A program made the position numbers and the translations under genes. Of a DNA stretch of 64,000 bases, positions 527 to 63,333 are shown in pieces. The number at the start of each line of letters is the position of its first letter. Position 1 is the first letter of the stretch. The notes beneath the pieces are model-generated. The model was given only the letters and a program-made list of their open reading frames with translations, ran no database searches and had not been told where the DNA came from. The stretch comes from Prevotella sp. GTDB lineage: Bacteria; Bacteroidota; Bacteroidia; Bacteroidales; Bacteroidaceae. Location of the stretch: positions 50,090-114,089 of the forward strand of contig JAFZSI010000044.1 of assembly GCA_017619445.1 (NCBI GenBank). The letters are read 5' to 3'.

Positions 527-1198
527 CTAATAATAGATGGTGCACGTGCCGCCGTCGCTGTCGCAGTACTGCCGCAGCAACTGCTGAATGAAGGCGGCAT
601 TGGCGCGCACCTGCTCCTCGTTGCCGTCGTATCCGTTGACGAGGGTGAGCAGATGCGTGGTTTCGAGCGTGATTTTGGTGCGCTCGTTGTCGCTTGTGGG
701 TGTTCCAACTCCACCCTCTGCATCGCGATAGACGGGCATGCCCTCGATGTTGATGAGTCCGCGGCCAATACCGTCGTATGGCTCTCCGTTGCGGCCAATG
801 CCCAGCGTGAGCGTGTCGCCAAAGAACTTGTCGGCATCAAAGCCGCCGATGCTATAGCCGAAACGCATGCTTGCCAGATTAATGAGGTCCACCAGCGTGT
901 CAATCTGATAGAGTTCCTTGCCTTGCAACACGCGGCGGATGAGTGCCTCGGCCGACGGGCGGTAGCGGCTGGGATCCTTGCCGCAGGCCTTATACACGCG
1001 GCGCGTGGACGTTATGCCGGGTATCTGCTCCTTGATGCTGGTGGTGTCAAGTTCGTTGCAGTATTTCTCCACCAATGCGTTGATGTCGCGCCACAGTTCG
1101 GGGCAGAACGGCGTGTTTTTTACTTGCGCCTCGACGGCTGCGCCCACAAACCTGGGGCACACCGTCTCTATCTCGTTCGATACTATTATTTTTATCAT
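527..1198 (-). CDS. Stand-alone B3/B4 (PheT-type) tRNA-binding domain protein
   Basis: The 223-residue protein matches the B3/4 domain found in the beta subunit of phenylalanyl-tRNA synthetase, but without the rest of PheT. Typical segments are the VxKACGKDPSRYRPSAEAL block near residues 70-85, then the NLASMRFGYSIGGFD block and the IGRGLINIEG segment. In PheT this domain carries the editing site. Stand-alone members are known in many bacteria and may clear mischarged aminoacyl species, but their role is not settled. The gene starts 12 bp after the ligA stop and is probably co-transcribed with it. Confidence 0.82.
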   Translation of the reverse strand: MIKIIVSNEIETVCPRFVGAAVEAQVKNTPFCPELWRDINALVEKYCNELDTTSIKEQIPGITSTRRVYKACGKDPSRYRPSAEALIRRVLQGKELYQIDTLVDLINLASMRFGYSIGGFDADKFFGDTLTLGIGRNGEPYDGIGRGLINIEGMPVYRDAEGGVGTPTSDNERTKITLETTHLLTLVNGYDGNEEQVRANAAFIQQLLRQYCDSDGGTCTIYY

Positions 1199-3403: not shown

Positions 3404-3467
3404 ACTCAAAGCATAGAACGAGGTTCCTAAATGCCCACTTTGGCCACAAATTTTCTAGAAAATTTGG
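3404..3467. repeat. 21-bp array family, locus A (short copy)
   Basis: The perfect 20-bp palindrome CAAATTTTCTAGAAAATTTG (3447-3466) lies just after the SDR stop codon. It is preceded by two degenerate 21-bp units, of the form CAAAGCATAGAACGAGGTT and CCTAAATGCCCACTTTGGCCA. This is the smallest and most decayed of six loci of this family in the window. Confidence 0.6.
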
Positions 3468-3469
3468 TT

Positions 3470-4201
3470 CTATAGTTTGAAGTGCCGCCAGAGGCATCGG
3501 GGAATACGGCGCCAGAATGCGGTGATGATGCGCCAACGCCAGTCGATGACGCGCGTGTGGCGGCGTTTCTCAATGGAAGAAACCATCTCTCGGGCCACTC
3601 GTTCGGGGCGCAGCATGAGGGGATAGTGGAAATTGTCGTTCAGCAGGTCGGTGTCAACAAAGCCGGGCCGCAGGTCGGTGAAGCGGATGTTCAGCCGGCG
3701 GGCGTTGGCAAGCTGCTCTAAAGACTGCAGATAGGTGTTCTGGAATGCCTTGGTGGCCGAGTAGGAGGGCGCGGGGCCAAGTCCTTTGGTTCCGGCGATG
3801 GATGTGATGGCGGCAATGTGTCCCCCGCCGTTTTGGGCGAAATGGTTGAAGGCCGTATCCACCATTCTTGTGAATCCCATGGCGTTGGTGCTCACGGTGT
3901 TGGTCTCGATTTCAGGTTCCAGTTGTCGGTTCTGCTTGCCGATGCCCGATGCGTGGAAGTAGAGGTCCATGCCTCCGAGTTCAGTAATGAGCTGTTGGAG
4001 CAGCTGTGGCGCGTCTTCTTGGGTGATGTCAATGGTTTTCACCTTCACTTGCTGCGGATGTTCGTTCTGAAGTTCAAGGAGTTTTTCCTGTCGGCGGGCG
4101 GCAATGCCCACTGTCCAGCCTTTGGCGATGAGCAGGCGTGCCACTTCGCGCCCAATGCCCGACGATGCTCCCACAATGATGGCTTTCTTCTGTGTGTTCA
4201 T
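3470..4201 (-). CDS. Short-chain dehydrogenase/reductase (SDR)
   Basis: A 243-residue classical SDR with the NAD(P)-binding GASSGIG loop (residues 11-17) and the catalytic S134, Y147 and K151 (YSATK). R37/R38 after the second strand suggest a preference for NADP(H). The C-terminal ~25 residues are basic and hydrophobic, which may allow membrane contact. It starts 5 bp after the MFS gene stop, so the two form an operon. The substrate is not predictable. Members of this subgroup are often annotated as SDR oxidoreductases of unknown substrate. Confidence 0.9.
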   Translation of the reverse strand: MNTQKKAIIVGASSGIGREVARLLIAKGWTVGIAARRQEKLLELQNEHPQQVKVKTIDITQEDAPQLLQQLITELGGMDLYFHASGIGKQNRQLEPEIETNTVSTNAMGFTRMVDTAFNHFAQNGGGHIAAITSIAGTKGLGPAPSYSATKAFQNTYLQSLEQLANARRLNIRFTDLRPGFVDTDLLNDNFHYPLMLRPERVAREMVSSIEKRRHTRVIDWRWRIITAFWRRIPRCLWRHFKL

Positions 4202-8634: not shown

Positions 8635-9408
8635 ATGAGCAAGATGCAACTGACTTTTCTCGGAACAGGAACATCGGGCGGTGTGCCCAGCATTGGGTGC
8701 AGCTGCGATGTGTGCCGCAGCAGCGACCCGCGCGACCGCCGTCTGCGCAGTTCAGCCCTGCTTGAGACGGCCACCACGCGCCTGCTCATTGACTGTGGTC
8801 CCGATTTCCGCCAGCAGATACTGCCGTTGCCGTTCCGGCGCTTCGACGCCATTCTGCTCACGCACATCCATTTCGACCATGTGGCGGGCATTGACGACCT
8901 GCGGCCTTTTTGCGTGTTTGGCGACCTGGAGATTTACACCAACCACCGCACGGCTGAGAGCCTCCGAACCACCATGCCCTATTGCTTCACCGAGCATTTG
9001 TATCCCGGAGTGCCGCGTCTGAACCTGCACGAGGTGCAGCCACGCAGCCCATTCACCGTGGGCGACATAGAAGTGCTGCCGCTCGAGGTGATGCACGACC
9101 GTCTGCCCATCCTCGGTTTCCGCTTTGGAAACCTGGCTTACATCACCGACATGAAAACCATGGCCGACAGCGAGGCCGCGCTGCTCAAGGGCATCGACAC
9201 GCTTGTGGTTGATGCGCTGCGGTGGGCTCCCGACCATCATTCGCACATGACGGTTGATGAGGCTGTGGCCTTTGCCCGCACCATTGGCGCAAGGCGCACC
9301 CTGCTCATGCACTGTAACCATCAGATAGGCCTTCACGCAGAGACAAACCGCCGTTTGCCGTCAGGCGTTGAACTGGCCTACGACGGCATGACGGTTGATA
9401 TTCCATGA
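8635..9408 (+). CDS. MBL-fold metallo-hydrolase (PhnP-like)
   Basis: A 257-residue metallo-beta-lactamase-fold protein. The metal-binding motif is HIHFDH (near residues 79-84), followed by later ligands in the VMHDRLP and ITDMK segments. An N-terminal GTGTSGGVPSIGCSCDVCRSSD block carries paired cysteines, as in PhnP-type cyclic phosphodiesterases. The exact substrate is unclear; in Bacteroidetes this family is usually annotated only as MBL-fold hydrolase. I chose the ATG at 8635, five bases after the murB stop, over an open frame that runs back into murB. Its stop codon overlaps the first palindrome of array B. Confidence 0.9.
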   Translation: MSKMQLTFLGTGTSGGVPSIGCSCDVCRSSDPRDRRLRSSALLETATTRLLIDCGPDFRQQILPLPFRRFDAILLTHIHFDHVAGIDDLRPFCVFGDLEIYTNHRTAESLRTTMPYCFTEHLYPGVPRLNLHEVQPRSPFTVGDIEVLPLEVMHDRLPILGFRFGNLAYITDMKTMADSEAALLKGIDTLVVDALRWAPDHHSHMTVDEAVAFARTIGARRTLLMHCNHQIGLHAETNRRLPSGVELAYDGMTVDIP

Positions 9409-9640
9409 TTTTCTAGAAAATCTGCACGTAAAGCATCGCTTTACGATAACAGAGTGGCACTTTACGATAACAGAGTGGCACTTTACGGTAACAAAACATA
9501 GGTTTACGATTAGATTTTCTAAAGAATCTGCAATCAACGTATTTGTTTGTTTCTGGATTTTCTAGAGAATGCACTTTTAAACCCACACTTTGGAATCGTA
9601 AAGCTTGGGTTTGCAAAAACAACTGGTGGTGTGGTTAGAA
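9407..9640. repeat. 21-bp array family, locus B
   Basis: Palindromes of the TTTTCTAGAAAA type start at 9409, 9515 and 9558, so the spacings are 106 and 43 bp. Between the first two lies an exact tandem repeat of the 21-mer CTTTACGATAACAGAGTGGCA (9439-9459, 9460-9480, partial from 9481), then a GGTTTACGATTAG unit. After the third come CCCACACTTTGG and GTAAAGCTTGGGTTTG units. Together with promoter sequence this fills the 370-bp gap before the toxin-antitoxin pair. Confidence 0.85.
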
Positions 9641-12801: not shown

Positions 12802-12824
12802 CTCTCCATAAATAGCAATCGAAA

Positions 12825-12862
12825 ATTGTAAATAGTAAATAGTAAATAGTAAATAGTAAATG
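12825..12862 (+). repeat. Heptanucleotide repeat (AAATAGT)n that contains the def start codon
   Basis: Four to five tandem copies of AAATAGT run up to and into the ATG of def at 12860; the start codon is made by the last, changed unit (AGTAAATGG). The same 'gtaaatagtaaat' sequence recurs in frame inside the metal-ATPase gene near 57420-57475. Confidence 0.85.
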
Positions 12863-13420
12863 GTTTTACCTATTTATATATATGGGCAGCCTGTGCTCCG
12901 AAAGGAGTCGCAGGACATACCCAAAGACTATCCTGGCCTGCAGCAGCTGATCAGCGACATGTATGAGACGCTCACTCAGGCCGACGGCATCGGACTGGCC
13001 GCGCCGCAGATTGGCAAGGACATCCGCGTGGTGGTAATCGACCTCACTCCGCTGGCCGACGACATGCCCGAATACAAGGATTTCCGCCATGCCTACATCA
13101 ATGCGCACATCGTGGAGTACGACGACACCAAGACCGAGACGATGGAGGAGGGCTGCCTGAGCTTGCCCGGCATCCACGAGAACGTCAACCGTCCGACACG
13201 CATCCACGTGCAGTATCTTGACGAGCAGCTTCAGGAGCACGACGAATGGGTGGAGGGCTATCTGGCCCGCGTCATGCAGCATGAGTTCGACCATCTCGAT
13301 GCCACCATGTTTGTTGACCGCGTCAGCCCCCTTCGCAAACAGCTCATCAAGAGCAAGCTGCGCTCGCTGCTTCAAGGCCGTTTCCGCTGCGCTTACCGTA
13401 ACAAGCCAGCGAGAAGATAA
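12860..13420 (+). CDS. def: Peptide deformylase
   Basis: Removes the N-formyl group from new proteins. All three motifs are present: GIGLAAPQ (residues 43-50), EGCLSLP (97-103, metal ligand C99) and QHEFDHL (140-146, ligands H141 and H145, catalytic E142). At 186 residues it is of standard size. The start codon is embedded in a heptanucleotide repeat and has no Shine-Dalgarno-like sequence. It lies 58 bp after ruvX. Confidence 0.96.
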   Translation: MVLPIYIYGQPVLRKESQDIPKDYPGLQQLISDMYETLTQADGIGLAAPQIGKDIRVVVIDLTPLADDMPEYKDFRHAYINAHIVEYDDTKTETMEEGCLSLPGIHENVNRPTRIHVQYLDEQLQEHDEWVEGYLARVMQHEFDHLDATMFVDRVSPLRKQLIKSKLRSLLQGRFRCAYRNKPARR

Positions 13421-13428
13421 ATGATGAT

Positions 13429-13540
13429 TGATAATTGACAATTGATTTTCTATTTTTAATTCTAAGTAAAATATCAATGGGATTGAAGTGTGGAATTAAA
13501 AGGCTATTGTTGTTTGCCGTGCTTCAATTGTCAATTATCA
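13429..13540. repeat. Inverted 'caattgtcaattatca' repeat around the TPR gene start
   Basis: TGATAATTGACAATTG (13429-13444) is the exact complement of CAATTGTCAATTATCA (13525-13540). More direct copies of 'gtcaatt' follow to 13557. The left arm lies in the leader and the right arm inside the signal-peptide codons. A hairpin of these arms would enclose the start codon at 13477. Confidence 0.8.
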
Positions 13541-15471
13541 GTTGTCAATTGTCAATTTGCAGAGCCCAGTTCAACACCGAACGCCTGATAAACGTGGGGC
13601 GGAGCGCGCTTTATTATGAGGACTACGTGCTTAGCATCCAGTATTTCAATCAGGCCATATCGGCAAAGCCTTGGCTGTATGAGCCGTGGTTCTACCGTGG
13701 TGTGGCCAAGTTCTATCTCGACGACTTCGGGGGCGCTGAGGCCGACTGCACCGAGGCCATCCGCATCAATCCCTATATTACCGGCATCTACGAGCTGCGC
13801 GGGCTGTGCCGCATCAGGCAGAAGAAATACACCGACGCCATCACCGACTACGACAAGGCCCTGCAGTACGACCCCACAAACCAGGGATTCTGGTATAACC
13901 GTGTGCTCTGCCGCATTCAGGACAAAGACTTCGAAGGCGCGCACCACGACCTCGACTCCATGACCTCGCGGTGGAAGAAATATGCGCCTGCATTCTCGCT
14001 CAAGGCCGACGTGTTCATACAGCAGGGCGATACGCTCAAGGGAGCCGAATGGCTCGACAAAAGCCTTGAGATTGACCCCTACAATGGCGATGCCTGGACC
14101 GTGCGCGCCGCCATCAGCCTGTCGCGCCGCAACTGGCGCGAGGCAGAACAGCAGCTAAGCAAGGCCATACACCTGAAGCCCAAGGTGGTTGGCAACTACA
14201 TCAACCGCGCCCTGGCCCGCTACAACATCAACAACCTTCGTGGTGCCATGCAAGACTATGACAAGGCTATCGACCTCGACCCCAACAACTTTATCGGACA
14301 CTACAACCGCGCGCAGCTACGTGTGCAGGTGGGCGACGACAACCGCGCCATTCTCGACTTCGACTACATCCTGGAGCATGAGCCTGACGACGTGATGGCC
14401 CGATTCAACCGTGCGCTGTTGCGTGACCGTACGGGTGACCTTCGCGGAGCCATCGAAGACTATTCGCGCGTCATTGATGTCTATCCGAACTTCTGGACCG
14501 GCTTGCACTATCGCGCCCGCTGCTACCGCCGTCTGGGCATGACGGCCAAGGCCGAGATGGACGAGTTCCGCATTTTCAAGGCTCAGATGGACAAGCACTT
14601 GGGAATACAGCCACGGTTGAAGAAACACCAGATGCGAAAGCAGAGTGACATTGACTTGGACAAGTACAACCAGCTCGTTGTGGCCGACGACCAGAATGTG
14701 GAGCACGAGTACAACAGCGCATGGCGCGGTAAGGTTCAGAACCGCAAGGTGGAAACGCAGCTCATGCCCATGTATCAGCTCAGTTTTGCCCAGTACGACA
14801 ACGGCGTGAACACGTTCCAGGCTTTTGACACAGAGGTGGAACGGTTCAACCGCACACAGTCACCCGGCAGACAGCTATTCCTGAGTTGTTCGCAGCGCAC
14901 CCTCACGCAGGAAGAATTGGAGGAGTGCTTCAAACTCATTGAATCGCTCACCCAGGCCATTACCGGCAAGCGCACGGCTGCCGAAAGTATGCCCTTGCTG
15001 CTGCAACGTGCCGTGGCCTATGCCAAGACCCAGAATTTCGACGATGCTATGAGCGACCTCACGCTGTGCATACAGACCGACAGCACCTGTGTGCTTGCCT
15101 ACTGGCAGCGCGCCGCCTGTCAGGCAATGGTCAATGAGTTCAACGCATCGCAAGGCATTGACGTACAGCTGAAAAGCGCGCGAGCCATGGACGATTTCAA
15201 CCATGCCGTTAGCTTGCATTCCAACAGTGCCTATCTGCTCTACGACCGAGCCAATCTCCATGCCGCACGCAAAGAATATGCAAAGGCTATTGACGACTAT
15301 TCCGCCGCGCTCAAAATCAATCCACGGCTTGCCGAAGCCTACTTTAACCGCGGCTATGCCCGCATCATGGCTAACCAGAAGACCGATGGCATTCGCGACC
15401 TAAGCCGCGCAGGCGAACTTGGACTATACGATGCCTATAGTGTCATCAAGCAGTTCAGCGGCGAGAAGTAG
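13477..15471 (+). CDS. Secreted tetratricopeptide-repeat (TPR) protein
   Basis: A 664-residue protein with a signal peptide and about ten TPR units. Eight are almost continuous (residues ~30-350), then comes a linker with the KKHQMRKQSDIDLDKYNQLVVADDQ segment, and further TPRs lie at the C-terminus (AKAIDDYSAALKINPRLAEAYFNRGYA). TPR arrays bind partner proteins; a periplasmic or outer-membrane role is likely. The hydrophobic core of the signal peptide (LQLSIISCQLSI) is encoded by the CAATTGTCAATT repeat, an odd origin for a functional element. The ATG at 13477 is preferred to an in-frame codon at 13435. Confidence 0.88.
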   Translation: MGLKCGIKRLLLFAVLQLSIISCQLSICRAQFNTERLINVGRSALYYEDYVLSIQYFNQAISAKPWLYEPWFYRGVAKFYLDDFGGAEADCTEAIRINPYITGIYELRGLCRIRQKKYTDAITDYDKALQYDPTNQGFWYNRVLCRIQDKDFEGAHHDLDSMTSRWKKYAPAFSLKADVFIQQGDTLKGAEWLDKSLEIDPYNGDAWTVRAAISLSRRNWREAEQQLSKAIHLKPKVVGNYINRALARYNINNLRGAMQDYDKAIDLDPNNFIGHYNRAQLRVQVGDDNRAILDFDYILEHEPDDVMARFNRALLRDRTGDLRGAIEDYSRVIDVYPNFWTGLHYRARCYRRLGMTAKAEMDEFRIFKAQMDKHLGIQPRLKKHQMRKQSDIDLDKYNQLVVADDQNVEHEYNSAWRGKVQNRKVETQLMPMYQLSFAQYDNGVNTFQAFDTEVERFNRTQSPGRQLFLSCSQRTLTQEELEECFKLIESLTQAITGKRTAAESMPLLLQRAVAYAKTQNFDDAMSDLTLCIQTDSTCVLAYWQRAACQAMVNEFNASQGIDVQLKSARAMDDFNHAVSLHSNSAYLLYDRANLHAARKEYAKAIDDYSAALKINPRLAEAYFNRGYARIMANQKTDGIRDLSRAGELGLYDAYSVIKQFSGEK

Positions 15472-21682: not shown

Positions 21683-21830
21683 GCCAAATTTTCTAAAGAA
21701 TTTCATCCTAAAAGTGCTCTTTACGACCGCAAAGCTATGGTTTGTTTTCACAGCGCATCGGTTTATGAATGCAAAGCACAGGTTTGTGATTAATTTTTCT
21801 AGAAAATTTGCACGTAAAGTGTGGGTATCA
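21683..21830. repeat. 21-bp array family, locus C
   Basis: Palindrome cores start at 21689 (TTTTCTAAAGAA) and 21795 (TTTTCTAGAAAA), 106 bp apart. Between them are four 21-bp units: CCTAAAAGTGCTCTTTACGAC, CGCAAAGCTATGGTTTGTTTT and two more ending GGTTTATGAA and GGTTTGTGAT. Another unit follows the second palindrome. The array lies in the 460-bp gap between divergent tex and the ABC-F gene. No other gene was found in that gap. Confidence 0.85.
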
Positions 21831-22014: not shown

Positions 22015-24024
22015 ATGATATCGGTAGAAGGACTGAAAGTTGAGTTTGGGGCCAAGCCTCTGTTCGCTGATGTGAGCTTTGTGGTGAACGACCGCGACCG
22101 CATTGCGCTGGTGGGCAAGAACGGGGCTGGCAAATCGACTCTGCTCAAGATATTGTGCGGACAGCAGCAGCCCACGGCTGGCGTCGTGGCCATTCCCAAC
22201 GACACCTCCATCGGCTATCTGCCGCAGGTGATGCGTGTGGCCGATGATACCACTGTGCGCGACGAGGCCCGCAAGGCATTTGCCGACAGCACTGCTTTGA
22301 AGGAGCGCGTGGAACGGATGGAGCGCGAGCTGGGCGAGCGCTCCGACTACGAGAGCGAGGACTACCTGCGGCTTGTGGAGCGTTTCACGCAGGAGCACGA
22401 GCGCTATCTGCTGATGGGTGCCGACAACTACGAGGCTCAGATTGAGCGCACGCTCGTCGGCCTGGGCTTCGAGCGCAGCGATTTTGAGCGTCCCACAAGC
22501 GAGTTTTCTGGCGGCTGGCGCATGCGCATCGAACTGGCCAAACTGCTGCTGCGGTGTCCCGATGTGCTGTTGCTCGACGAGCCTACCAACCACCTCGACA
22601 TTGAGAGCATTCAGTGGCTGGAGCAGTTTTTGGCGCAGAGCGGCAGCGCGGTGGTGCTGGTGAGCCACGACCGCGCGTTCATCAACAATGTAACCACGCG
22701 TACGTTGGAGATTTCGTGTGGCCACATCATCGACTACAAGGTGAAATACAATGAGTATGTGGTTATACGTCGCGAACGTCGCGAACAACAGCTGCGTGCC
22801 TACGAGAACCAGCAGAAGGAGATGGCCGACATGCGGGCCTTCATCGAGCGTTTCCGCTACAAGGCCACCAAGGCCGTGCAGGTGCAGCAGAAAATCAAGC
22901 AGTTGGAGAAGATTGTGCCCATTGAGATTGACGAGGTTGATAACTCCGCGTTGCGTCTGAAGTTCCCGCCCTGTCTGCGCTCGGGCGACTATCCCGTAAT
23001 CTGCGAAGAGGTGGCCAAGAGCTACGGCAGCCATCGGGTGTTCGCCGATGTGTCATTCATTTTGAAACGGGGCGAGAAAGTGGCGTTCGTGGGCAAAAAC
23101 GGCGAGGGCAAATCCACGCTCGTGAAGTGCATCATGGACGAGATACCGTTTGACGGTCAGCTGAAAATCGGCCACAATGTGCAGATAGGATATTTTGCGC
23201 AGAACCAGGCGCAGTTGTTGGATGAGACTCTCACCGTTTTCGAGACCATCGACCGCGTGGCCCGTGGCGACATCCGTCTGCGCATCAACGACATTCTTGG
23301 TGCCTTTATGTTTGGAGGCGAGGAATCCGACAAGAAAGTGCGTGTGCTCAGCGGCGGCGAGCGCAGCCGTCTGGCCATGATTAAACTGCTGTTGGAGCCG
23401 GTGAACCTGCTGATACTCGACGAGCCGACAAACCATCTGGATATGCAGTCGAAGGATGTGCTGAAAGAGGCCATCCGCGCCTTCGACGGCACTGCCATCA
23501 TCGTCAGCCACGACCGCGAGTTCCTCGACGGGCTTGTCAGCAAGGTATATGAGTTTGGCGGCGGACGTGTGCGCGAGCATCTGGGCGGCATCTACGACTT
23601 CCTGCGAGCCAGGAAGATTGACGAGCTGAACGAATTGGGGAGAGGAGAGAGGAGAGAGGAGAGTGGAGAGAGAATACTCAAACCTCAGCCCTCAATTGCC
23701 ACTTCGTTCTCGCTTTCAGCTCGCGACCCCTTCGGCGTTCTCAACCCTCAACCCACCAAACAGAACTACGCCGAGCGCAAGGAACTGCAACGGCGCATAG
23801 GCCGCGTGGAGAAAGCCGTGAAAGAATGCGAGGCGAAGATTGCCGAAATGGAAAAACGCATCAAGGAACTCGACCAACTGCTGATGCAACCGGAGAATGC
23901 CGCCGACATGGTGCTCGTAACGGAATACACAACCACCAAAAGCGCGCTCGACACAGAAAGCGACCGCTGGATGACGCTCTCGGAGGAACTTGAAGAGCGG
24001 CGCGCTGAACTACAGAACTTATAA
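22015..24024 (+). CDS. ABC-F family ATP-binding protein
   Basis: A 669-residue soluble protein with two ABC domains and no membrane segments. The first has GKNGAGKST (36-44), SGGWRMRIELAK and LLLDEPTNHLD. The second has GKNGEGKST, LSGGERSRLAM and LILDEPTNHLD. The linker between them and the coiled-coil C-terminus are typical of ABC-F factors that act on the ribosomal E site. Residues ~541-582 hold an insert of low-complexity sequence (Arg/Glu run, then Pro/Gln/Ser) encoded by a 'gaggagag' tract. The ATG at 22015 is right after the promoter; the longer frame upstream is not supported. It is not a clear antibiotic-resistance type; closest to the Uup/YheS-like group. Confidence 0.93.
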   Translation: MISVEGLKVEFGAKPLFADVSFVVNDRDRIALVGKNGAGKSTLLKILCGQQQPTAGVVAIPNDTSIGYLPQVMRVADDTTVRDEARKAFADSTALKERVERMERELGERSDYESEDYLRLVERFTQEHERYLLMGADNYEAQIERTLVGLGFERSDFERPTSEFSGGWRMRIELAKLLLRCPDVLLLDEPTNHLDIESIQWLEQFLAQSGSAVVLVSHDRAFINNVTTRTLEISCGHIIDYKVKYNEYVVIRRERREQQLRAYENQQKEMADMRAFIERFRYKATKAVQVQQKIKQLEKIVPIEIDEVDNSALRLKFPPCLRSGDYPVICEEVAKSYGSHRVFADVSFILKRGEKVAFVGKNGEGKSTLVKCIMDEIPFDGQLKIGHNVQIGYFAQNQAQLLDETLTVFETIDRVARGDIRLRINDILGAFMFGGEESDKKVRVLSGGERSRLAMIKLLLEPVNLLILDEPTNHLDMQSKDVLKEAIRAFDGTAIIVSHDREFLDGLVSKVYEFGGGRVREHLGGIYDFLRARKIDELNELGRGERREESGERILKPQPSIATSFSLSARDPFGVLNPQPTKQNYAERKELQRRIGRVEKAVKECEAKIAEMEKRIKELDQLLMQPENAADMVLVTEYTTTKSALDTESDRWMTLSEELEERRAELQNL

Positions 24025-28206: not shown

Positions 28207-29199
28207 ATGGCATTTTTAACCAACGACAAACTGACCATCGTCGGCGCAGCCGGAATGATCGGTTCAAACATGGCTCAGACCGCCCTGATGATGGGTCTGA
28301 CAAGTGAAATCTGTCTTTACGATGTGTTCTCGCCCGAAGGTGTGGCCGAGGAGATGCGCCAAAGTGGCTTCGACGATGTGAACATCGTTTCTACAACCGA
28401 TCCCGAGGTAGCATTCACGAACGCCAAGTATATCATCTCAAGCGGCGGTGCGCCCCGTAAGGCTGGTATGACGCGCGAGGACCTGCTCGCCGGCAACTGC
28501 AAAATTGCCGAGGAGCTGGGCCAGAACATCAAGAAATTCTGCCCCGACGTGAAACACGTGGTCATCATCTTCAATCCCGCCGACCTGACAGGTCTTGTTA
28601 CCCTGCTTTACTCGGGTCTGAAACCCGGACAGGTGACCACACTGGCAGGACTCGACACCACCCGTCTGCAGAGCGCATTGGCCAAGAAGTTCGATGTGAT
28701 GCAGAACCAGATTACAGGTTGTGCCACCTATGGCGGACACGGCGAGCAGATGGCCGTATTTGGCAGCCACGTTGAGATTGCAGGCCGCAAGCTGACAGAC
28801 ATCATCGGCACCGACGAGTTCCCCGCCGAGGAGTGGGAGCAGATGAAGGTTGACGTGACCAAAGGCGGCGCCAAGATTATTGAACTGCGCGGACGCAGCT
28901 CGTTCCAGAGCCCTTCGTATCTCTCGGTTGAGATGATTCGTGCTGCCATGGGCGGCGAGCCTTTCCGTTTCCCCGTTGGCACCTACGTGAAGACCGACAA
29001 GTACGACCACATCATGATGGCCATGAAGACCACCATGGACAAGGACGGTGCACACTTCGAAGTGCCGCAGGGAACTGCCGAGGAGAACGCCAAGCTCGAC
29101 CAGAGCTACGAGCACCTCTGCAAAATGCGCGACGAGCTCGTTACGCTCAACATCGTTCCGCCCATCAGCGAGTGGAGCGCCATCAATCCTAATCTCTAA
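28207..29199 (+). CDS. mdh: Malate dehydrogenase
   Basis: A 330-residue lactate/malate dehydrogenase-fold enzyme interconverting malate and oxaloacetate with NAD(H). It shows the Rossmann loop GAAGMIGSN (near residues 13-21), and IIFNPADLTGLVTLLYSG with the substrate Asn. DTTRLQSALAKKF and the catalytic-His loop ATYGGHGEQMAVFGS follow. In Prevotella-like fermenters it feeds fumarate reduction and succinate production. Monocistronic: own promoter and a strong terminator. Confidence 0.94.
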   Translation: MAFLTNDKLTIVGAAGMIGSNMAQTALMMGLTSEICLYDVFSPEGVAEEMRQSGFDDVNIVSTTDPEVAFTNAKYIISSGGAPRKAGMTREDLLAGNCKIAEELGQNIKKFCPDVKHVVIIFNPADLTGLVTLLYSGLKPGQVTTLAGLDTTRLQSALAKKFDVMQNQITGCATYGGHGEQMAVFGSHVEIAGRKLTDIIGTDEFPAEEWEQMKVDVTKGGAKIIELRGRSSFQSPSYLSVEMIRAAMGGEPFRFPVGTYVKTDKYDHIMMAMKTTMDKDGAHFEVPQGTAEENAKLDQSYEHLCKMRDELVTLNIVPPISEWSAINPNL

Positions 29200-29268
29200 G
29201 CCGTCTGCCTTTGGGGCAGAGTAGCCCCACACAACAGAAAGATGCTTAGCCTTTAGAAACGCTAACCA

Positions 29269-29310
29269 AGGAGCAAGCAGGCTGGCAACAGCCTCTTGCT
29301 CCTTTTTTTC
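29269..29310 (+). terminator. Terminator after mdh
   Basis: AAGGAGCAAGCAGGCTG pairs with CAGCCTCTTGCTCCTTT across a 4-base loop, followed by a T run. Confidence 0.9.
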
Positions 29311-29449
29311 GTGTACTTCGCCATCGATTCGCACACTTGTCATTCCCGCCCGCGTTGTTATTCTTCCTGCCTTCGCTTTTGTTTTTCCCGTTTCATGCTT
29401 TGTTGTTCCTATCTCCAGCATGGCAAAACCACACCTATGTTTTATGATG

Positions 29450-29620
29450 CAATTTTCTAGAGAATTTGGTCATAAACCTGCACATTATTCTTCTAAACCT
29501 ACACTATATTCTTCTAAACTTATGCTTTGTGAAAACAAACCTACGCTTTATGAATACAAACTTATGCTTTGCGTTCAGATTTTCTAGAAAATTTGCGCGT
29601 AAAGCATAGGGTTGTGTTTG
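29450..29620. repeat. 21-bp array family, locus D (best-preserved 21-bp register)
   Basis: Palindrome cores start at 29453 (TTTTCTAGAGAA) and 29580 (TTTTCTAGAAAA), 127 bp apart (6x21+1). Between them five units of exactly 21 bp can be cut: 29470-29490, 29491-29511, 29512-29532, 29533-29553 and 29554-29574. All have the form N4-AAAC-YTAYGCTTT-N4, which is the reverse complement of the AAAGYRYAGGTTT units at other loci. The array sits in the 711-bp gap between mdh and the VWA gene. The rest of that gap has only a C/G-rich hairpin at 29805-29840. Confidence 0.9.
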
Positions 29621-29804
29621 TAGCTCGTAGGGTGGTGAAAACAACATCAAGAGTTAGGAATCTCATTTATGTGGTTGGGGTTGCGTTGCGTCTTGCCGTA
29701 CATACAAGAAAAAAGGTGGTTAAGAAGAAATAATGTTAAGGATGGTTAAATGGGTTTGTTCTACGTGCAAGTATTCAGATGCTGGTGCGTTTAACAGGTA
29801 AAAG

Positions 29805-29840
29805 GGGAAGCCCCCCGTGCCCCCCGGAGGGGGGGAGGGA
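29805..29840. repeat. GC-rich hairpin (CCCCCC...GGGGGG)
   Basis: CCCCCCGTG CCCCCC GGAGGGGGGGAGGG just before the VWA lipoprotein gene. A related CCCTCCCAAAGGGAGGG hairpin lies at 39907-39925. Both stand in otherwise empty gaps and look like copies of a short mobile hairpin. Confidence 0.6.
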
Positions 29841-29910
29841 AGCAGAAAGCTTCAATTATCAAACCTCAATTCCCAAACCAGAAACAGTAAAAACCAAAAA
29901 CATATTTAAG

Positions 29911-31173
29911 ATGAAAACAAAAAAGAAACTCTTTTCTTTTGCCGGCATCGGTCTGCTGGCAGTTGTGTTTGCCTTGGCATCGTGTTCAAAAACGGATGAC
30001 GGTTCAGATGTTTATTTAAACGAGAGCGACAGAGAAGGCTTTGCTTATGCAATGGGCGGCGATGGTGATTCCTCTGGAGCTGGCGGTGGTGATAATCCTG
30101 GGGAAGGCACAGACTTGGGCAACACGCAGGCCGGAGTCGTAACGGCGGGCGAGTGGTGCGACCTTACGAACTGGGATTTCTGGTCTAAGCTGATGCTGGG
30201 TGAGGAGTATTCAAACATGGCCGAGTATTGGCAATTATATACCAACAACCGCGTGGCAGTGAAAGTGACCGACGAGCATGGCAATGCCATGGCCGGGGTG
30301 AAGGTGAAGCTGCTGCGCGAAGGCGATGGCACAAGCACCGTCTGGGAGACTGTTACCGACAATCACGGCATGGCCGAATGCTGGCTGGGCCTTTTGCAGC
30401 AGTCTGACGGCAAAGCCGACCGTCTGCGCGTGAGTCTGAACGGCGAAATGATGGACGGCCATCCTGCAATTTGCCCCATGGACTCGCTCCTGCAGTCGGT
30501 AACAGTCAATGAGTATGTGTGCAAGAAGTCATCGTCGGTATCGCAGCAGGCTGACATTGCTTTCATCGTCGATGCCACAGGCTCCATGTCCGACGAGATT
30601 GATTTTCTGAAAGAAGACCTCATGGACATCATCCGGCGAGTGGAGTCTGTAAGACCCTCCATGAAGATGCGTACGGCGGCGCTGTTCTACCGCGACGAGG
30701 GCGACGAGTACCTGACGCGCCACCACGACTTCACCACCAATCTGAGCCAGACTGTCAGCTTTGTTGAGCAACAGCGTGCCGAGGGTGGCGGAGACTATCC
30801 GGAGGCTGTGCATACCGCGCTTGACCGTATGCTGCAAGACCTGTCGTGGGACAGCCAGGCGCGCACTCGCATTGCGTTTCTTGTGCTCGACGCGCCCGCC
30901 CATCACGAGGATGCCGTCATCCATTCGCTGCAGAAGTCGGTTGAACAGTGCGCCAAGCAGGGCATCCGCCTGATTCCCGTGGCTGCCAGCGGTGTGGACA
31001 AGAACACAGAGTTCATGCTGCGCTTCTTCGCCGTCAGCACAGGCGGAACCTATGTGTTCATCACCGATGACAGCGGTGTGGGCAACAGCCACTTGGTAGC
31101 CTCTGTGGGCGACTACAAGGTGGAGCAGCTCAACAACCTGATTATCCGCTTAATAGAATATTACACGGAATAG
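29911..31173 (+). CDS. VWA-domain lipoprotein
   Basis: A 420-residue lipoprotein (lipobox VFALASC) with an acidic Gly-rich spacer (residues ~50-75), an Ig-like carboxypeptidase-regulatory or Big-type middle part (VAVKVTDEHGNAMAGVKVKLL) and a C-terminal von Willebrand A domain. The domain carries the MIDAS motif DATGSMS (near residue 220) and the later Thr/Asp residues (GGGDYPEAV, DAPAHHED). VWA domains bind metal and partner proteins; surface adhesion or sensing is likely. The ATG at 29911 starts the signal peptide; the earlier in-frame codon at 29779 would add a proline-rich stretch and is rejected. Confidence 0.88.
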   Translation: MKTKKKLFSFAGIGLLAVVFALASCSKTDDGSDVYLNESDREGFAYAMGGDGDSSGAGGGDNPGEGTDLGNTQAGVVTAGEWCDLTNWDFWSKLMLGEEYSNMAEYWQLYTNNRVAVKVTDEHGNAMAGVKVKLLREGDGTSTVWETVTDNHGMAECWLGLLQQSDGKADRLRVSLNGEMMDGHPAICPMDSLLQSVTVNEYVCKKSSSVSQQADIAFIVDATGSMSDEIDFLKEDLMDIIRRVESVRPSMKMRTAALFYRDEGDEYLTRHHDFTTNLSQTVSFVEQQRAEGGGDYPEAVHTALDRMLQDLSWDSQARTRIAFLVLDAPAHHEDAVIHSLQKSVEQCAKQGIRLIPVAASGVDKNTEFMLRFFAVSTGGTYVFITDDSGVGNSHLVASVGDYKVEQLNNLIIRLIEYYTE

Positions 31174-39564: not shown

Positions 39565-39872
39565 TCAATCAGTCAAACCCATGCTTTGCGAGCGCAAAGC
39601 ATGGGTTTGTTTTTACCAAGCATTTGTTTGTTTTCGTAAAGTGCAGGTTTATGATTGAATTTTCTAAAGAATTTGCATGTAAAGTGCAGGTTTGTTTTTA
39701 CCAAGCAATTGTTTGTTTTCGTAAAGTGCAGGTTTATGATTGAATTTTCTAAAGAATTTGCATGTAAAGTGTAGGTTTGTTTTTACCAAGCAATTGTTTG
39801 TTTTTGCAAAGTGCAGGTTTATGAAAACAAAGTGCAGGTTTATGAACAGATTTTCTAGAAAAATTATACGTA
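39565..39872. repeat. 21-bp array family, locus E, with an 85-bp tandem repeat
   Basis: An 85-bp unit occurs twice in full (39606-39690 and 39691-39775) and a third time in part (from 39776). Each contains four modules of 21, 21, 21 and 22 bp: a TTTTCTAAAGAA palindrome, TGTAAAGTGCAGGTTTGTTTT, TACCAAGCAATTGTTTGTTTT and CGTAAAGTGCAGGTTTATGATT. Palindrome cores start at 39661, 39746 and 39851 (steps of 85 and 105). A GCTTTGCGAGCGCAAAGC hairpin opens the array. It ends one base from the decayed hemW copy. Confidence 0.9.
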
Positions 39873-39983
39873 CATCAAATCGCTGATGATGGAACCCACC
39901 CCAGCCCTCCCAAAGGGAGGGAGTAAGGGTGTTAGGTGGTCACCACCATGTCATCGTACTTCTCGTTTGTGGTGAGCATTTCT
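39864..39983 (-). pseudogene. Decayed 3' fragment of hemW at the restriction-island boundary
   Basis: Bases 39864-39892 are identical to 49306-49334, the last 29 bases of intact hemW including its stop codon. Bases 39938-39982 match 49504-49548 (45 bp, five mismatches). In hemW these two blocks are 169 bp apart; here only 45 bp separate them, filled by a C/G-rich hairpin. So this is a hemW 3' end with an internal deletion. It abuts the hsdR stop codon (39984). Confidence 0.85.
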
Positions 39984-42422
39984 CTATGCGCAATACAATC
40001 TGCGTTGCAACTCAAAGTAGTGCGCACGTATATCAGCGACAGACATATTCAATCTTTCCTTAGCATCGCTCATCGAGTTGAACTTGATGGTGATAAAGGT
40101 CTTCAGTTTATCAGTCCCCAGCTCTTTGAAACCGTTGCTGACGTAGTATTGCAGGATGAGGTTGTCGAAATCGCGCTGCTCCTCGTTCAAAGAATCCACA
40201 TACTGCTTCTTCACAAGTTCCACTCGTTTTTCCCTCTCTATGGGTGTAGAGTCATAGGCAATGTATTCCAGCACATCCAGCAAGTCGCATTTCTGCATCT
40301 TCAGCATGTTCTTCAGGAGATTCAGTTTGTCCTCCGCAAACCCTGCCTCATCAAGCGTTCTCAGCAGTTGCTCTCGGGTTTCGGGATTAGCCCATTTTTC
40401 TCTCAGGTCATCTGCTCCTGAGAAGAAATCAGGAATTCTGCCAAACAACTTATCTACATATTCATTCAGGGTGATGAACTCATCGCCAAAGAATATCTTT
40501 TGTTCCCAGGTCGTTTCTAGCGACAACTTTCTTCCGTTCGACAACTTAATGTCTATCAGGTTTGTCTTTGGTCCTTCACACGTACAGGGCAGGTGTCCGC
40601 ATACGGGGCACGGCTTTGGTTCGCTTACTATACCGTCATCGTCTTCTTCTGGTGGCATCGGGTATGGCTTCTTCTTACACGTGCAAGGCCAGTTGCCACA
40701 AATCGGGCAGTATGTGTCGCCATCCCAATCCGGGTCTTTGAACATGTCGCAAGCCCCTACAAAGTCATAGATGGTGAAATAATACTTCTTGTCAAACAAG
40801 CGTGTGCCACGACCTATAATCTGCTTAAACTCAACGATGTTCTGAACAGGGCGCATCAGTACGATGTTGCGCACATTGCGGGCATCAACACCAGTACTCA
40901 ACTTATAAGATGTAGTCAGGATGGTCGGCAGAAGCTTTTCATTGTCCTGGAAGGCTCTCAACGTCGCTTCACCCACTTCTCCGTCATCAGCCGTTACTCG
41001 CTCACAATAGTTGCTGGCAGGGCGCCGTTTGTGCTTGTTCACCATATCGCGCACGATCATCGCATGTTTCTGAGTGGCACAGAAGATGATGGTCTTTTCG
41101 TCGGGGTCAATCTTGTTCAGCAACTCTTGCACACGATGCTCGTCACGCTCCTTTATCTGTATTCTGCCATTATAGAAATCCGACTCCGAGTAAACCTTTT
41201 CATAGTCTATCTCTCCACTCTTCACGATGTCGCCTTCTTCATACTGATAGTCGTCAATGTTGCTCGTAGAGATGTCAACGCGGAAAGGAACAAGGAAACC
41301 GTCCTCGATTCCTTGTTTCAGAGAATAGGTATAGACAGGGTCTCCAAAGTAGGCATAGGTGTTGACATTTTCCTTTCTTCTGGGTGTGGCAGTCATACCA
41401 AGCTGGTAAGCGCTGTCGAAATACTCCATCAGCTTTCGCCACTCGCTTTCGTCATTGGCACCACCACGATGACACTCGTCGATGATGATGAAGTCAAAGA
41501 AGTTGCGCTCATACTGCATGTAGTAGGGCTGGTCGTCTGAGCCTTCTGGCAACTTGATGCCTTGCTCCTCTGCCTTTTGGGCGTTGGGCGAGGTCATCAT
41601 CGTCTGGAAAATGGTGAAATAAAGATTGCGGGCTGTGGGCACCTTGTAATTGTTCTTCCGCAGTTCCTTGGGCGTAATTCGACACATAGCATCCTCTGGG
41701 AACTGGTCGAAGTCGTTGATGGCCTGATTGGCAAGAATGTTTCTGTCGGCTATAAACAAGATTCTTGGTGCGCGCTCAACGCCCTTGTTCGTCCATTTCG
41801 TCTGTGTCAGTTTCCAGCATATTTGGAAAGCCGTGTAGGTCTTTCCTGTGCCTGTAGCCATTGTCAGCAAAATGCGATTCCGCTGCTTTGCCACCGCCTC
41901 CAGCACATTCTTAATGGCAATTTCCTGATAGTAACGAGGCGTTCGCCCACCGCTGCGATTGAGCGCACACAGATTGAACTTGTCGCGCCAAGGGTTCTCT
42001 TCAGGGAAGGTCATCTGCCACAAGTCCTGTGGCGTTGGGAAATTGTCAATATCCTTTTCCTTGCTGGAAATGATATACTCTCCCTTGCTGTTCTTCACAC
42101 CCATGTCGATGAACCATATCTCATCGCCATTCGAGCTATAGGTGTAGCGAATCTTCAGGGCATCGGCATAGAGTTTGGCCTGGTCCACGCCTTCAGCCAC
42201 GTCTTTCTCGTCGCTCTTGGCTTCTATTACGGCAAGTTTCATACCCTTGTATTCAAGGATATAGTCTGCCTTCTTCGGATTCTTGTTACCAGTAGTGGTG
42301 ATGCGGCCAGGCGCAATATAAGCACTCTGCTCCACAAGTATATTACTTCCTGGAACAATCCCCCAGCCTGCATCCCTTAGCTTGGGGTCTATTTTGTTAA
42401 ATCGAGTCTGCGCTTCGTTCAT
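39984..42422 (-). CDS. hsdR: Type I restriction enzyme, R subunit (EcoEI-like)
   Basis: An 812-residue HsdR that translocates and cuts unmodified DNA. The N-terminal nuclease core shows D53 and E67-x-K69 (D...EAK). The SF2 motor has ATGTGKT (189-195) and DECH (315-318), followed by GMTATPRR. Two Cys clusters near residue 610-640 (YCPICGNWPCTC, PCPVCGHLPCTC) may bind zinc. The C-terminal part is EcoEI-like. The ATG at 42422 gives the standard start (MNEAQTRFNKIDPKL); the longer frame to 42494 is mere read-through. Last gene of the island operon. Confidence 0.95.
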   Translation of the reverse strand: MNEAQTRFNKIDPKLRDAGWGIVPGSNILVEQSAYIAPGRITTTGNKNPKKADYILEYKGMKLAVIEAKSDEKDVAEGVDQAKLYADALKIRYTYSSNGDEIWFIDMGVKNSKGEYIISSKEKDIDNFPTPQDLWQMTFPEENPWRDKFNLCALNRSGGRTPRYYQEIAIKNVLEAVAKQRNRILLTMATGTGKTYTAFQICWKLTQTKWTNKGVERAPRILFIADRNILANQAINDFDQFPEDAMCRITPKELRKNNYKVPTARNLYFTIFQTMMTSPNAQKAEEQGIKLPEGSDDQPYYMQYERNFFDFIIIDECHRGGANDESEWRKLMEYFDSAYQLGMTATPRRKENVNTYAYFGDPVYTYSLKQGIEDGFLVPFRVDISTSNIDDYQYEEGDIVKSGEIDYEKVYSESDFYNGRIQIKERDEHRVQELLNKIDPDEKTIIFCATQKHAMIVRDMVNKHKRRPASNYCERVTADDGEVGEATLRAFQDNEKLLPTILTTSYKLSTGVDARNVRNIVLMRPVQNIVEFKQIIGRGTRLFDKKYYFTIYDFVGACDMFKDPDWDGDTYCPICGNWPCTCKKKPYPMPPEEDDDGIVSEPKPCPVCGHLPCTCEGPKTNLIDIKLSNGRKLSLETTWEQKIFFGDEFITLNEYVDKLFGRIPDFFSGADDLREKWANPETREQLLRTLDEAGFAEDKLNLLKNMLKMQKCDLLDVLEYIAYDSTPIEREKRVELVKKQYVDSLNEEQRDFDNLILQYYVSNGFKELGTDKLKTFITIKFNSMSDAKERLNMSVADIRAHYFELQRRLYCA

Positions 42423-59208: not shown

Positions 59209-59285
59209 CGGCAGTTTGCTTGCAACTTGGTTGCAAACCTTCGCCTAAAGCCTCAAATTGTTCTTGCCCTTGTTTGCATGGCGGG

Positions 59286-59510
59286 CACAAAGTGCAGGTT
59301 TACGTTCAAATTTTCTAGAAAAATTCATCGTAAAGCATGGGTTTGAAAATGCCACGCTTAGGACGGTTATCACAGAGTGCAGGTTTACGTTCAAATTTTC
59401 TAGAAAATTTCACCGCAAAGTGATGGTTTGTGTCCGTAAAGTGTGGTACGGGAAAAACAAAGCGATGCTTTGTTGGCGCAAAGTGGATGTCTGGTTGCGT
59501 GTTTTGTTGA
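59286..59510. repeat. 21-bp array family, locus F
   Basis: Palindrome cores start at 59311 and 59396, 85 bp apart, each preceded by GTGCAGGTTTACGTTCAAA. Units of 21 bp follow in register: CGTAAAGCATGGGTTTGAAAA, TGCCACGCTTAGGACGGTTAT, then CGCAAAGTGATGGTTTGTGTC, CGTAAAGTGTGGTACGGGAAA, AACAAAGCGATGCTTTGTTGG. The array sits in the 460-bp divergent gap between the metal ATPase and the PAP2-like gene. Confidence 0.88.
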
Positions 59511-61647: not shown

Positions 61648-63294
61648 ATGGAAAGTTCAAAGAAAATCATAGTTTACCAAATCTTTACGAGGCTGTTTGG
61701 CAACCGCAACGACACTTGCAAGCCAAACGGAACTATCGAGGAGAACGGCAGCGGAAAGATGAACGACATCGACGCGAAGGTGCTGCGGCAGATTCGCGCC
61801 ATGGGCGTGACGCACATCTGGCTGACGGGCATCATCCGCCATGCCACGCAGACCGACTACTCGGCCCACGGCATTCCCCGCCAGCATCCCGACGTGGTGA
61901 AGGGTAGGGCAGGCTCGCCTTACGCCATTACCGACTACTACGACGTGGACCCCGACCTGGCCGTCGATGTGGACAGCCGCATGGAAGAGTTCGTGCAGTT
62001 GGTGGAGCGCATCCACAAGGTAGGCATGAAGGTGGTTATCGACTTTGTGCCCAACCACGTGGCGCGCGAGTACCACAGCATCTGCAAGCCCGCAGGTGTG
62101 AAGGACCTTGGCGAGGAAGACGATGTGAACATGCACTTCTCCACCAAGAACAACTTTTACTATTGCTGGGGGCAGACTATGCAGCTCGGCGATTACACGG
62201 AAACGCCTGCCAAGGCTACGGGCAACGACGTGTTCTCCGCCTCGCCTTCGCAGAACGACTGGTATGAGACGGTGAAGCTGAACTATGGCATTGATTACTG
62301 CGACGCGGGCGGACGCTCGGAGCACTTCACACCCATCCCCAACACGTGGGGCAAGATGACCGACATCCTGCTGTTTTGGGCTGCGAAGGGCATCGACGGT
62401 TTCCGCTGCGACATGGCCGAGATGGTGCCGTCTGCATTCTGGACATGGGCCACCGACAAGGTGAAGTTCCGCTATCCCGAGAAAATCTTCATCGGCGAGG
62501 TGTACGACCCCAACCAGTACCGCCGCTACATCGGCGCGGGCTTCGACTATCTGTACGACAAGGTGGGCATGTACGACTGCATCCGCGACGTTATCAGTCA
62601 CCGCCGCCGCGCTGCCGACATTACCACGCAATGGCAGCAAACCGACGACATCCGCCGCCACATGCTTTACTTCCTTGAGAACCACGACGAGCAGCGCATT
62701 GCCAGTCCGTTCTTCGCGGGCGATGCCCGCAAAGGTGTGCCCGGACTTATTGTCAGCGCGCTGTTCGGCCAGAATCCGTTCATGCTCTATGCTGGTCAGG
62801 AAGTGGGCGAGCCAGGCATGGATGCAGAGGGCTTCAGCGGCTGCGACGGACGCACCACCATCTTCGACTATTGGAACGTTGGCTCGCTGCGCCGCGCCTA
62901 TTTCGACCGCCGCCGTATGACGAAGGGTGAGCGCGCCTTGGAGCAGACTTATAGCAAGGTGCTGCAAATGGCAGTCAGTGAGCGCGCCGTCACCGACGGT
63001 CAGGCCTACGACCTGATGTATGTGAATCCGCAGCTGGCCGACCGCCAGTTTGCCTTTCTCCGCAGCGCCGACAACGAGCTGCTCATTGTTGTGGCCAATT
63101 TCGAAGACCAGCCCGTCAGCACCTCGCTCGTCATTCCCCGCCATGCCTTCGAGTTCCTGCAACTCCCGCAGACCGAAGCCACGGCCACCGACCTGCTCAC
63201 CGGCAAGCAGCAGAAACTCTTGCTCTATCCCGATACACCGATGAGCATCGAATTGCCTGCCAACGGCGGCATCGTCTTGAAGATAAGCAAATAA
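61648..63294 (+). CDS. GH13 alpha-amylase-family glycosidase
   Basis: A 548-residue (beta/alpha)8 enzyme of family GH13. The four conserved regions are present: DFVPNH (I), GFRCDMAE with the nucleophile D255 (II), FIGEVYD with the acid/base E284 (III) and ENHDEQR (IV, near 346). There is no signal peptide, so it acts in the cytoplasm on maltodextrins or stored glycogen. The ATG at 61648 is preferred (MESSKKIIVYQIFTRLFG); in-frame codons at 61585 and 61639 are alternatives. It lies 69 bp after fabD. Confidence 0.92.
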   Translation: MESSKKIIVYQIFTRLFGNRNDTCKPNGTIEENGSGKMNDIDAKVLRQIRAMGVTHIWLTGIIRHATQTDYSAHGIPRQHPDVVKGRAGSPYAITDYYDVDPDLAVDVDSRMEEFVQLVERIHKVGMKVVIDFVPNHVAREYHSICKPAGVKDLGEEDDVNMHFSTKNNFYYCWGQTMQLGDYTETPAKATGNDVFSASPSQNDWYETVKLNYGIDYCDAGGRSEHFTPIPNTWGKMTDILLFWAAKGIDGFRCDMAEMVPSAFWTWATDKVKFRYPEKIFIGEVYDPNQYRRYIGAGFDYLYDKVGMYDCIRDVISHRRRAADITTQWQQTDDIRRHMLYFLENHDEQRIASPFFAGDARKGVPGLIVSALFGQNPFMLYAGQEVGEPGMDAEGFSGCDGRTTIFDYWNVGSLRRAYFDRRRMTKGERALEQTYSKVLQMAVSERAVTDGQAYDLMYVNPQLADRQFAFLRSADNELLIVVANFEDQPVSTSLVIPRHAFEFLQLPQTEATATDLLTGKQQKLLLYPDTPMSIELPANGGIVLKISK

Positions 63295-63333
63295 AGTTCA
63301 AAGTTCAAAAATCAAAGTTCAAAGATAAAAGCC

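Follow-up and report, generated by a model that had tools for sequence, protein, structure and literature searches.

Intergenic arrays of 21-bp units punctuated by palindromes keep a common register across a rumen Prevotella genome

Six arrays in the window

The window, by which we mean the whole 64,000-nt stretch of DNA analyzed here, contains six intergenic arrays of 21-bp units punctuated by short palindromes (all coordinates of arrays and their parts are given without strand). The array at the center of this study, at 29453 to 29614, follows the mdh gene and has palindromes at 29453 and 29580 (spacing, 127 bp), with five AAAC..CTTT-type unit cores between them (29473 to 29571) and one AAAG..GTTG core outside (29600). 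Its second palindrome, at 29580 to 29591, is an exact copy of TTTTCTAGAAAA, 1 of 129 in the genome, and lies 8 bp from the next unit core. The remaining arrays vary in size. A weak one at 3404 to 3475 consists of a single palindrome (3451 to 3462) and a single unit core over threshold (3428 to 3442). The array at 9409 to 9613, which starts immediately past an open frame ending at 9408, has palindromes at 9409, 9515, and 9558 (spacings of 106 and 43 bp) and seven unit cores, and the array at 21689 to 21806, flanked by divergent genes, has palindromes at 21689 and 21795 (spacing, 106 bp) and cores over threshold at 21730, 21751, and 21772. The largest, at 39574 to 39862, lies between convergent genes and is made up of an 85-bp super-unit repeated 2.6 times, with palindromes at 39660, 39745, and 39851 (spacings of 85 and 106 bp) and eight unit cores; a Type I restriction R-subunit-like gene (39984 to 42335) adjoins it. 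At 59246 to 59472, finally, palindromes at 59311 and 59396 (spacing, 85 bp) and six unit cores are flanked by divergent genes, a P-type ATPase and PAP2, which occupy separate places in relatives among the matches listed. Units occur in both orientations: the five inner ones at 29450 are of the AAAC..CTTT type, and most of those at 39565 are AAAG..GTTT.

A sequence-only reading had pointed to arrays at 3404, 9407, 21683, 29450, 39565, and 59286. All six are present, and we confirm that together they form a real family that extends through the genome. Allowing up to two mismatches, TTTTCTAGAAAA matches the window 14 times, compared to 2.65 ± 1.59 times in shuffles, and 13 of the 14 matches are inside arrays (the exception is at 56176). 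The palindrome-to-palindrome distances in the window are 106, 43, 106, 127, 85, 106, and 85 bp; among the distances listed by the earlier reading, 43, 85, 106, and 127 bp do occur, and a distance of 105 bp and one of three 85-bp distances are absent.

Copy number and register in the genome of origin

The window comes from a rumen Prevotella genome of 2.87 Mb in 81 contigs (here G000), and the best 80 of 579 relatives of its malate dehydrogenase are mostly from ruminant-gut Prevotella or Prevotellaceae assemblies, with 93 to 96% protein identity. The 129 copies of TTTTCTAGAAAA in G000 compare with none for the reversed control and with 0 to 3 copies in each of 59 relatives. A longer oriented pattern, with up to three mismatches, has 235 matches per strand in G000, and its control has none.

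We determined the register of the arrays in 225 kb of sequence, made up of the window and 80 G000 loci of ~2 kb around matches among those listed. All 42 palindrome spacings below 400 bp are 0, 1, or 2 modulo 21, and 37 of them are 1 modulo 21, in agreement with the proposed role of palindromes as punctuation. A symmetric unit matrix identified 499 unit cores in this sample, 29 of them in predicted genes. Because the reversed control also gave 90, a part of the single unit-core matches must be due to chance. When spacings between consecutive units were counted within 130 bp in the window and the 80 loci, 351 of 366 were 21n or 21n+1 by script tally (353 if a single 126 and a single 127 are counted), including 189 of 21 bp, 55 of 42 bp, 84 of 43 bp, and 15 of 85 bp, with 13 off phase. 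A spacing of 20 bp occurs once and of 22 bp twice (3/366). The phase lock that had been proposed from the window therefore extends to the genome-wide tally.

This regularity of length is accompanied by considerable divergence in sequence. Neighboring units 21 bp apart differ at 39% of positions (189 pairs), which corresponds to ~13 substitutions per adjacent pair and ~2,470 in all (Jukes-Cantor). Indels usually arise at a ratio of about 1 per 10 substitutions, from which ~250 would be expected between units. The claim that the arrays argue against simple slippage was correct in part: tandem duplication of 85-bp super-units is seen in some arrays, indicating that duplication makes units, but the scarcity of indels between diverged units calls for either an additional constraint or a mode of copying that preserves length.

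Anatomy of the arrays

At the center of the arrays is a 12-bp palindrome of the form TTYTC-NN-GARAA, flanked on both sides, at a distance of 8 bp, by units of 21 bp (YAAN-N7-NTTR). Read outward from the palindrome, the core RYAAAGC-NNN-GCTTTRY starts at this 8-bp offset, and runs of AAA and TTT then succeed one another at alternating distances of 10 and 11 bp. In spacers of at least 106 bp between palindromes nearly all units are canonical, the exceptions being locus L163 (107-bp spacer) and one unit of L158. The 84/85-bp spacer class (n = 18, of which 17 are exactly 85 bp) has a degenerate middle 21-mer in 17 cases: by the better of two readings, 8 of the 18 middles score within the lower 95% of background, 9 score between −1 and ~6, and one is canonical (10.9), although the 18 spacers are not independent, as L107 provides two, L135 three, and L139 two, and L103/L139 and L172/L173 are mutual copies.

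The units are not simple dyads. At some mirror positions of the G000 core, complementarity is below expectation (178 versus 242 and 193 versus 238 of 499); one position is above it (289 versus 261), and the remainder are near it. In a second genome of the genus (G215, described below), two mirror positions are far under the expected complementarity (21 versus 123 and 33 versus 137 of 308). These deficits show the units to be polar. Of 252 first linkers of the TTTTC type in G000, 150 are directed away from the palindrome and 77 toward it, and 25 are tied; the corresponding numbers for 164 such linkers in G215 are 131, 28, and 5. Second linkers tend to point inward in both genomes, as do third linkers in G000, whereas those of G215 lean outward. 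Outward polarity is confined to the immediate neighborhood of the palindrome.

Genomic placement

Using a home-made codon-usage gene caller, we found that all 84 palindrome groups in the G000 sample lie outside predicted genes. Tandem genes flank 31 of them, convergent genes 22, and divergent genes 20, and 11 are at a locus edge, giving 73 placed arrays. The 64 groups in G215 likewise all avoid genes, with 30 in tandem, 14 in divergent, and 13 in convergent settings and 7 at locus edges. With the window shares treated as fixed, the tandem share of the placed G000 arrays (31/73) is lower than that of gene pairs in the window (35/49; P = 3e-7) and less clearly lower than that of gaps longer than 150 bp (14/25; P = 0.02). 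After mdh (window 29199 to 29911), the next gene is kept in 1 of 77 eligible relatives, and the preceding gene is kept in 38 of 75. The array between mdh and the next gene stands at a synteny break, as judged from this gap alone.

Helical phasing and folding

The idea that the units share one face of the helix is borne out in G000 by the distribution of AA/TT steps, whose power in the arrays is 1.16 at 10.5 to 10.6 bp compared to 0.29 at 10.0 bp and 0.26 at 11.0 bp. A second peak lies near 12.1 bp (0.80), and in G215 the 12.1-bp peak (0.73) is higher than the one at 10.7 bp (0.58). With A/T runs every ~10.5 bp, the G000 units would lie on one face of the helix, and the helix itself is predicted to curve. 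A wedge model gave an end-to-contour ratio of 0.852 for 85 G000 arrays versus 0.933 for shuffles, with a mean z of −2.15 for predicted curvature and 45% of the arrays below −2 (control flanks, −0.14). For AAA/TTT, individual arrays show modest power at 10.5 bp, with a mean z of 1.35 and 27% above 2 (controls, 0.10 and 7%). By this modeling, the G000 arrays would count among phased A-tract sequences, with A/T runs at the helical period and curvature predicted to exceed that of shuffles.

Treated as single-stranded RNA, array segments of 120 nt form more stable folds than their shuffled counterparts (mean z, −3.1 in G000 and −4.3 in G215; flanks, −0.45), as expected from a dyad-symmetric consensus. 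A stricter hairpin test asks whether departures from consensus in one arm are matched by the other arm, with and without G-U pairs. In G000, this co-variation has z scores of −1.6, −2.2, and −4.3 at 20, 30, and 60 bp (−1.9, −2.3, and −4.7 with G-U allowed). In G215 it is weak and confined to near the center, at 2.6, 3.1, and 0.4 (2.6, 3.5, and 0.9 with G-U allowed), and shared unit polarity may account for part of it; some G215 dyads are nearly perfect (26 and 24 of 30 positions; 2 of 82 have at least 26/30). The lack of co-variation between the G000 arms argues against a hairpin RNA or a cruciform as the selected form in this genome, and recognition as double-stranded DNA is favored there; in G215, the arrays may act as hairpins.

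Arrays in other species

We searched a genus sample of 398 genomes, G000 included, and the oriented palindrome pattern matched 8 of them. Forward and reverse matches to TTTTCTAGARAA number 78 and 69 in G215, 6 and 8 in G353 (corresponding to nine palindromes), 3 and 0 in G247, and 1 and 1 in G022. A unit-only pattern matched 72 of the 398 genomes, many of them through heptamer repeats, which are a different thing from the 21-bp arrays, and it revealed a further genome, G330, with 113 and 107 matches.

The units of G215 read TAACGTCGTGAGTTATTTTCA around a palindrome nearly the same as that of G000, and those of G330 resemble TAAACCACTGGTTTACGATGC around TTCTC(GA/TC)GAGAA, a palindrome that differs from that of G000. 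The sequence-only reading had allowed that the spacings might prove random in other genomes; instead, they are in phase in 230 of 234 cases in G215, where 308 unit cores were found compared to 13 in the reversed control, and in 69 of 72 in G330, where 14 of the 18 flanks measured have a unit at the 8-bp distance from the palindrome. Palindrome spacings in G215 are 43, 85, or 106 bp in 17 of 18 cases. The last, of 116 bp, also occurs in G353 and seems to reflect a single element, common to both genomes, in which the second palindrome lacks an array; we set it aside as evidence for that reason. The letters of the units thus differ among G000, G215, and G330, and the spacing geometry is kept.

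High copy numbers were seen only in these three of the 398 genus genomes sampled, in addition to the nine palindromes of G353, and the arrays are therefore not essential in the genus. In an order-level sample of 393 genomes, the longer pattern matched G000 and three genomes with a single one-mismatch match each. Viral contigs searched with one pattern, and plasmids and phages searched with the array at 39570 to 39880, yielded no match.

Spread of the arrays and candidate proteins

Several arrays are copies of one another at loci whose flanks are unrelated: L103 and L139 are 83% identical over 182 bp, L172 and L173 are 86% identical over 132 bp, and further copies link L107 with L135 and L117 with the window array at 9409. 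A ~250-bp mobile-like element containing an array is common to L128, L136, and L150 of G000 and L185 of G247, with GTGCACAATTTGTGCACAAAA near one of its ends. In G330, the arrays at L212 to L217 lie within long elements that have inverted ends around GGTGCGGGACGTGCGACACGTGCGGGTGTTTTT, and three of these six loci are located at contig starts. Together, the inter-locus copies, the shared element, and the carriage between inverted repeats indicate that, irrespective of function, the arrays behave like mobile or copied DNA.

No support was found for two protein families as partners of the arrays. The suggestion that the copy number of a nucleoid protein would track them failed for HU-HIG (PF18291), the family covered by this search: its copy number, 13 in G000, 12 in G215, 4 in G330, 7 in G353, and 2 to 30 in 24 other genomes, does not follow the arrays. 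For Y1 transposases (PF01797, 23-bit cut-off), G215 has one match above the cut-off (31.2 bits), G000 and G330 have one match below it each, and G353 has none.

Comparison with known repeats

The arrays are an interspersed intergenic repeat set apart by base-exact spacing at the helical period, palindromic centers, and species dialects. The iterons of plasmid origins are repeats of ~17 to 22 bp on one face of the helix, found at single origin loci next to a Rep gene; the arrays share this repeat length and single helix face but are dispersed over many intergenic places. In the sections of PMC4596501 that describe it, BrickBuilt of Porphyromonas gingivalis is present in 19 copies and has a 23-nt imperfect tandem repeat without spacers, together with a leader, a tail, and terminal inverted repeats; it is always intergenic and lineage-restricted, and its repeat number varies among strains. 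Like BrickBuilt as described there, the arrays occur in Bacteroidales, are imperfect tandem repeats, are intergenic (0/84 in G000 and 0/64 in G215 within genes), and are lineage-restricted. They differ in having a 21-bp unit in three species rather than a 23-nt repeat and in number, with 84 arrays in part of G000 and ~170 by scaling (63 of 129 exact palindromes), compared to the 19 copies given in those sections, which also report neither palindromic punctuation nor helical phase (PMC4596501). Possible counterparts to the BrickBuilt leader and tail would be the inverted-repeat ends at the G330 arrays and the one element present in three G000 loci and in G247; for the other G000 arrays, the comparison of flanks covered the longest of the pairwise matches.

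According to the relevant passages of PMC6379681 and PMC3733652, Escherichia coli REPs are hairpins, many of them with GTAG tags and RAYT transposases, and gyrase binds BIME-2, the gyrase motif consisting of phased ~10-bp G/C variation in arms around a center (PMC6379681). Set against these descriptions, the arrays resemble BIME-2 and REP clusters as intergenic palindromic mosaics, and by analogy only their phasing resembles gyrase sites; unlike REPs, the G000 arrays have neither arm co-variation nor a Y1 transposase over the cut-off, and their spacing is quantized at 21 bp. With A/T runs 10 to 11 bp apart, they are also similar to the phased A-tract curvature signals of prokaryote genomes, which the relevant part of PMC3940949 presents as a genome-wide periodic signal, whereas the arrays are discrete dispersed elements with palindromic centers.

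A model for the arrays and its alternatives

The geometry, register, intergenic placement, and unit dialects observed in three species lead us to prefer, with a probability of about 0.42, a model in which the arrays are copied intergenic elements, similar in kind to BIMEs and to the MITEs of BrickBuilt, that would offer a wrapping protein phased sites on double-stranded DNA at the boundaries of transcription units. In this model, phased A/T steps would set the DNA on a curved path, as predicted for G000, and we infer a dimeric or oligomeric wrapping or bending protein that would take the palindrome as its dyad, candidates being nucleoid proteins and topoisomerases such as gyrase. The register would persist because any indel would rotate the following unit onto the wrong side of the helix and then be removed, as the scarcity of indels suggests. 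By analogy with E. coli BIMEs, the arrays may have a boundary or supercoil-handling role between transcription units, and they spread through inter-locus copying, tandem duplication, and carriage in MITE-like repeats. The structural selection put forward by the sequence-only reading is in part supported, by the phase lock, the palindromic punctuation, and the 10.5-bp AA/TT period of G000; the lack of tracking by HU-HIG goes against it. Also weighing against the model are the restriction of high copy numbers to three genomes of the genus sample, the AA/TT peak near 12.1 bp, the modest AAA/TTT signal, the loss of outward polarity away from the palindrome, the stable folding as RNA, the weak co-variation in G215, the mutual duplication among 85-bp spacers, and the inverted-repeat setting of the G330 arrays.

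The main rival, which we consider quite possible, is a neutral or selfish minisatellite carried in MITE-like elements, as in BrickBuilt, whose 21-bp period comes from duplication and whose arrays persist where they are harmless. Duplication can pass on a 21-bp period, and 85-bp tandem duplicates are present. The absence of arrays from the predicted genes (0/84), the lineage-restricted high copy number, the L103/L139 and L172/L173 copies with unrelated flanks, the inverted-repeat elements of G330, and the ~250-bp element in three G000 loci and G247 are consistent with it as well. A minisatellite accounts for spread and placement but not by itself for the scarcity of indels between strongly diverged units, and the recurrence of this geometry in two further species whose units are spelled differently also argues against it, as does the boundary bias, though at a P of only 0.02 against long gaps.

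Transcribed hairpins, acting as terminators or as REP-type RNA-stability elements through RNA stem-loops, are an improbable explanation. They would fit the better-than-shuffle folding, the weak co-variation (z = 3.1) and near-perfect dyads of G215, and the location of many arrays at gene 3' ends; however, compensatory change in G000 is not merely absent but in deficit, divergent genes flank 20 of the 73 arrays placed in G000, and a search of the window against Rfam 15 at the gathering score returned no match.

It is more doubtful still that the arrays are mobile promoter or regulator sites setting the expression of their neighbors. The Bacteroidales −7 motif, TAnnTTTG, is enriched in the arrays, but only mildly (25 versus 16.4 ± 3.6 in G000 and 19 versus 8.9 ± 2.3 in G215), which led us to reject a TAnnTTTG promoter array; its TA is not conserved at the required unit position, and 22 of 73 placed arrays lie between convergent genes. 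BrickBuilt segments do have bidirectional promoter activity, as stated in part of PMC4596501. Least credible of all are decayed fragments of a repeat gene with 7-residue repeats, an origin already considered by the sequence-only reading: a period of 21 is divisible by three, some arrays are traversed by open frames, and no stop occurs in 4 of the 30 frames read across five arrays of the window, but the other 26 contain stops (which alone do not exclude coding), none of the 84 arrays overlaps a gene predicted from codon usage, and palindrome spacings of 21n+1 shift the frame.

Among the papers listed by literature searches, none describes a 21-bp palindromic array family in Prevotella, and those listed for the palindrome letters concern, judged by title, unrelated human-cell topics. 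A broader proposal, which we advance tentatively and think on balance unlikely, is that the arrays belong to a kind of bacterial chromosomal element not described before, in which a palindromic dyad and the polar 21-bp units beside it would form a phase-locked nucleoprotein scaffold at dispersed transcription-unit boundaries. Its letters would vary by species with spacing fixed, implying a co-evolving DNA-wrapping protein that reads the helical face more than the sequence. If the phase is selected, three species with one geometry provide a natural experiment on how bacteria mark transcription-unit boundaries by DNA shape; if it is neutral, the arrays are a minisatellite family that diverges in sequence with its length almost unchanged, which bears on how arrays are copied.

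Other features in and near the arrays

At L118 (~1064 to 1245) and L144 (~750 to 925, reverse strand), a ~170-bp repeat interrupts the palindrome at its center and is bordered on each side by CTA, which would fit use of the palindrome as a target for transposition. At L134 (~1060 to 1113), an inverted repeat with ~24-bp arms, seen by eye, lies at the outer edge of the array. Heptamer simple repeats (AAATAGT, GATAATT, TCAATTG, GAGAGGA, and AAAGTTC) are also present in the window, at 12823 to 12861, 13416 to 13446, 13524 to 13557, 23640 to 23672, and 63293 to 63331; they are unlike the 21-bp units, and other heptamer repeats occur in many genomes of the genus.
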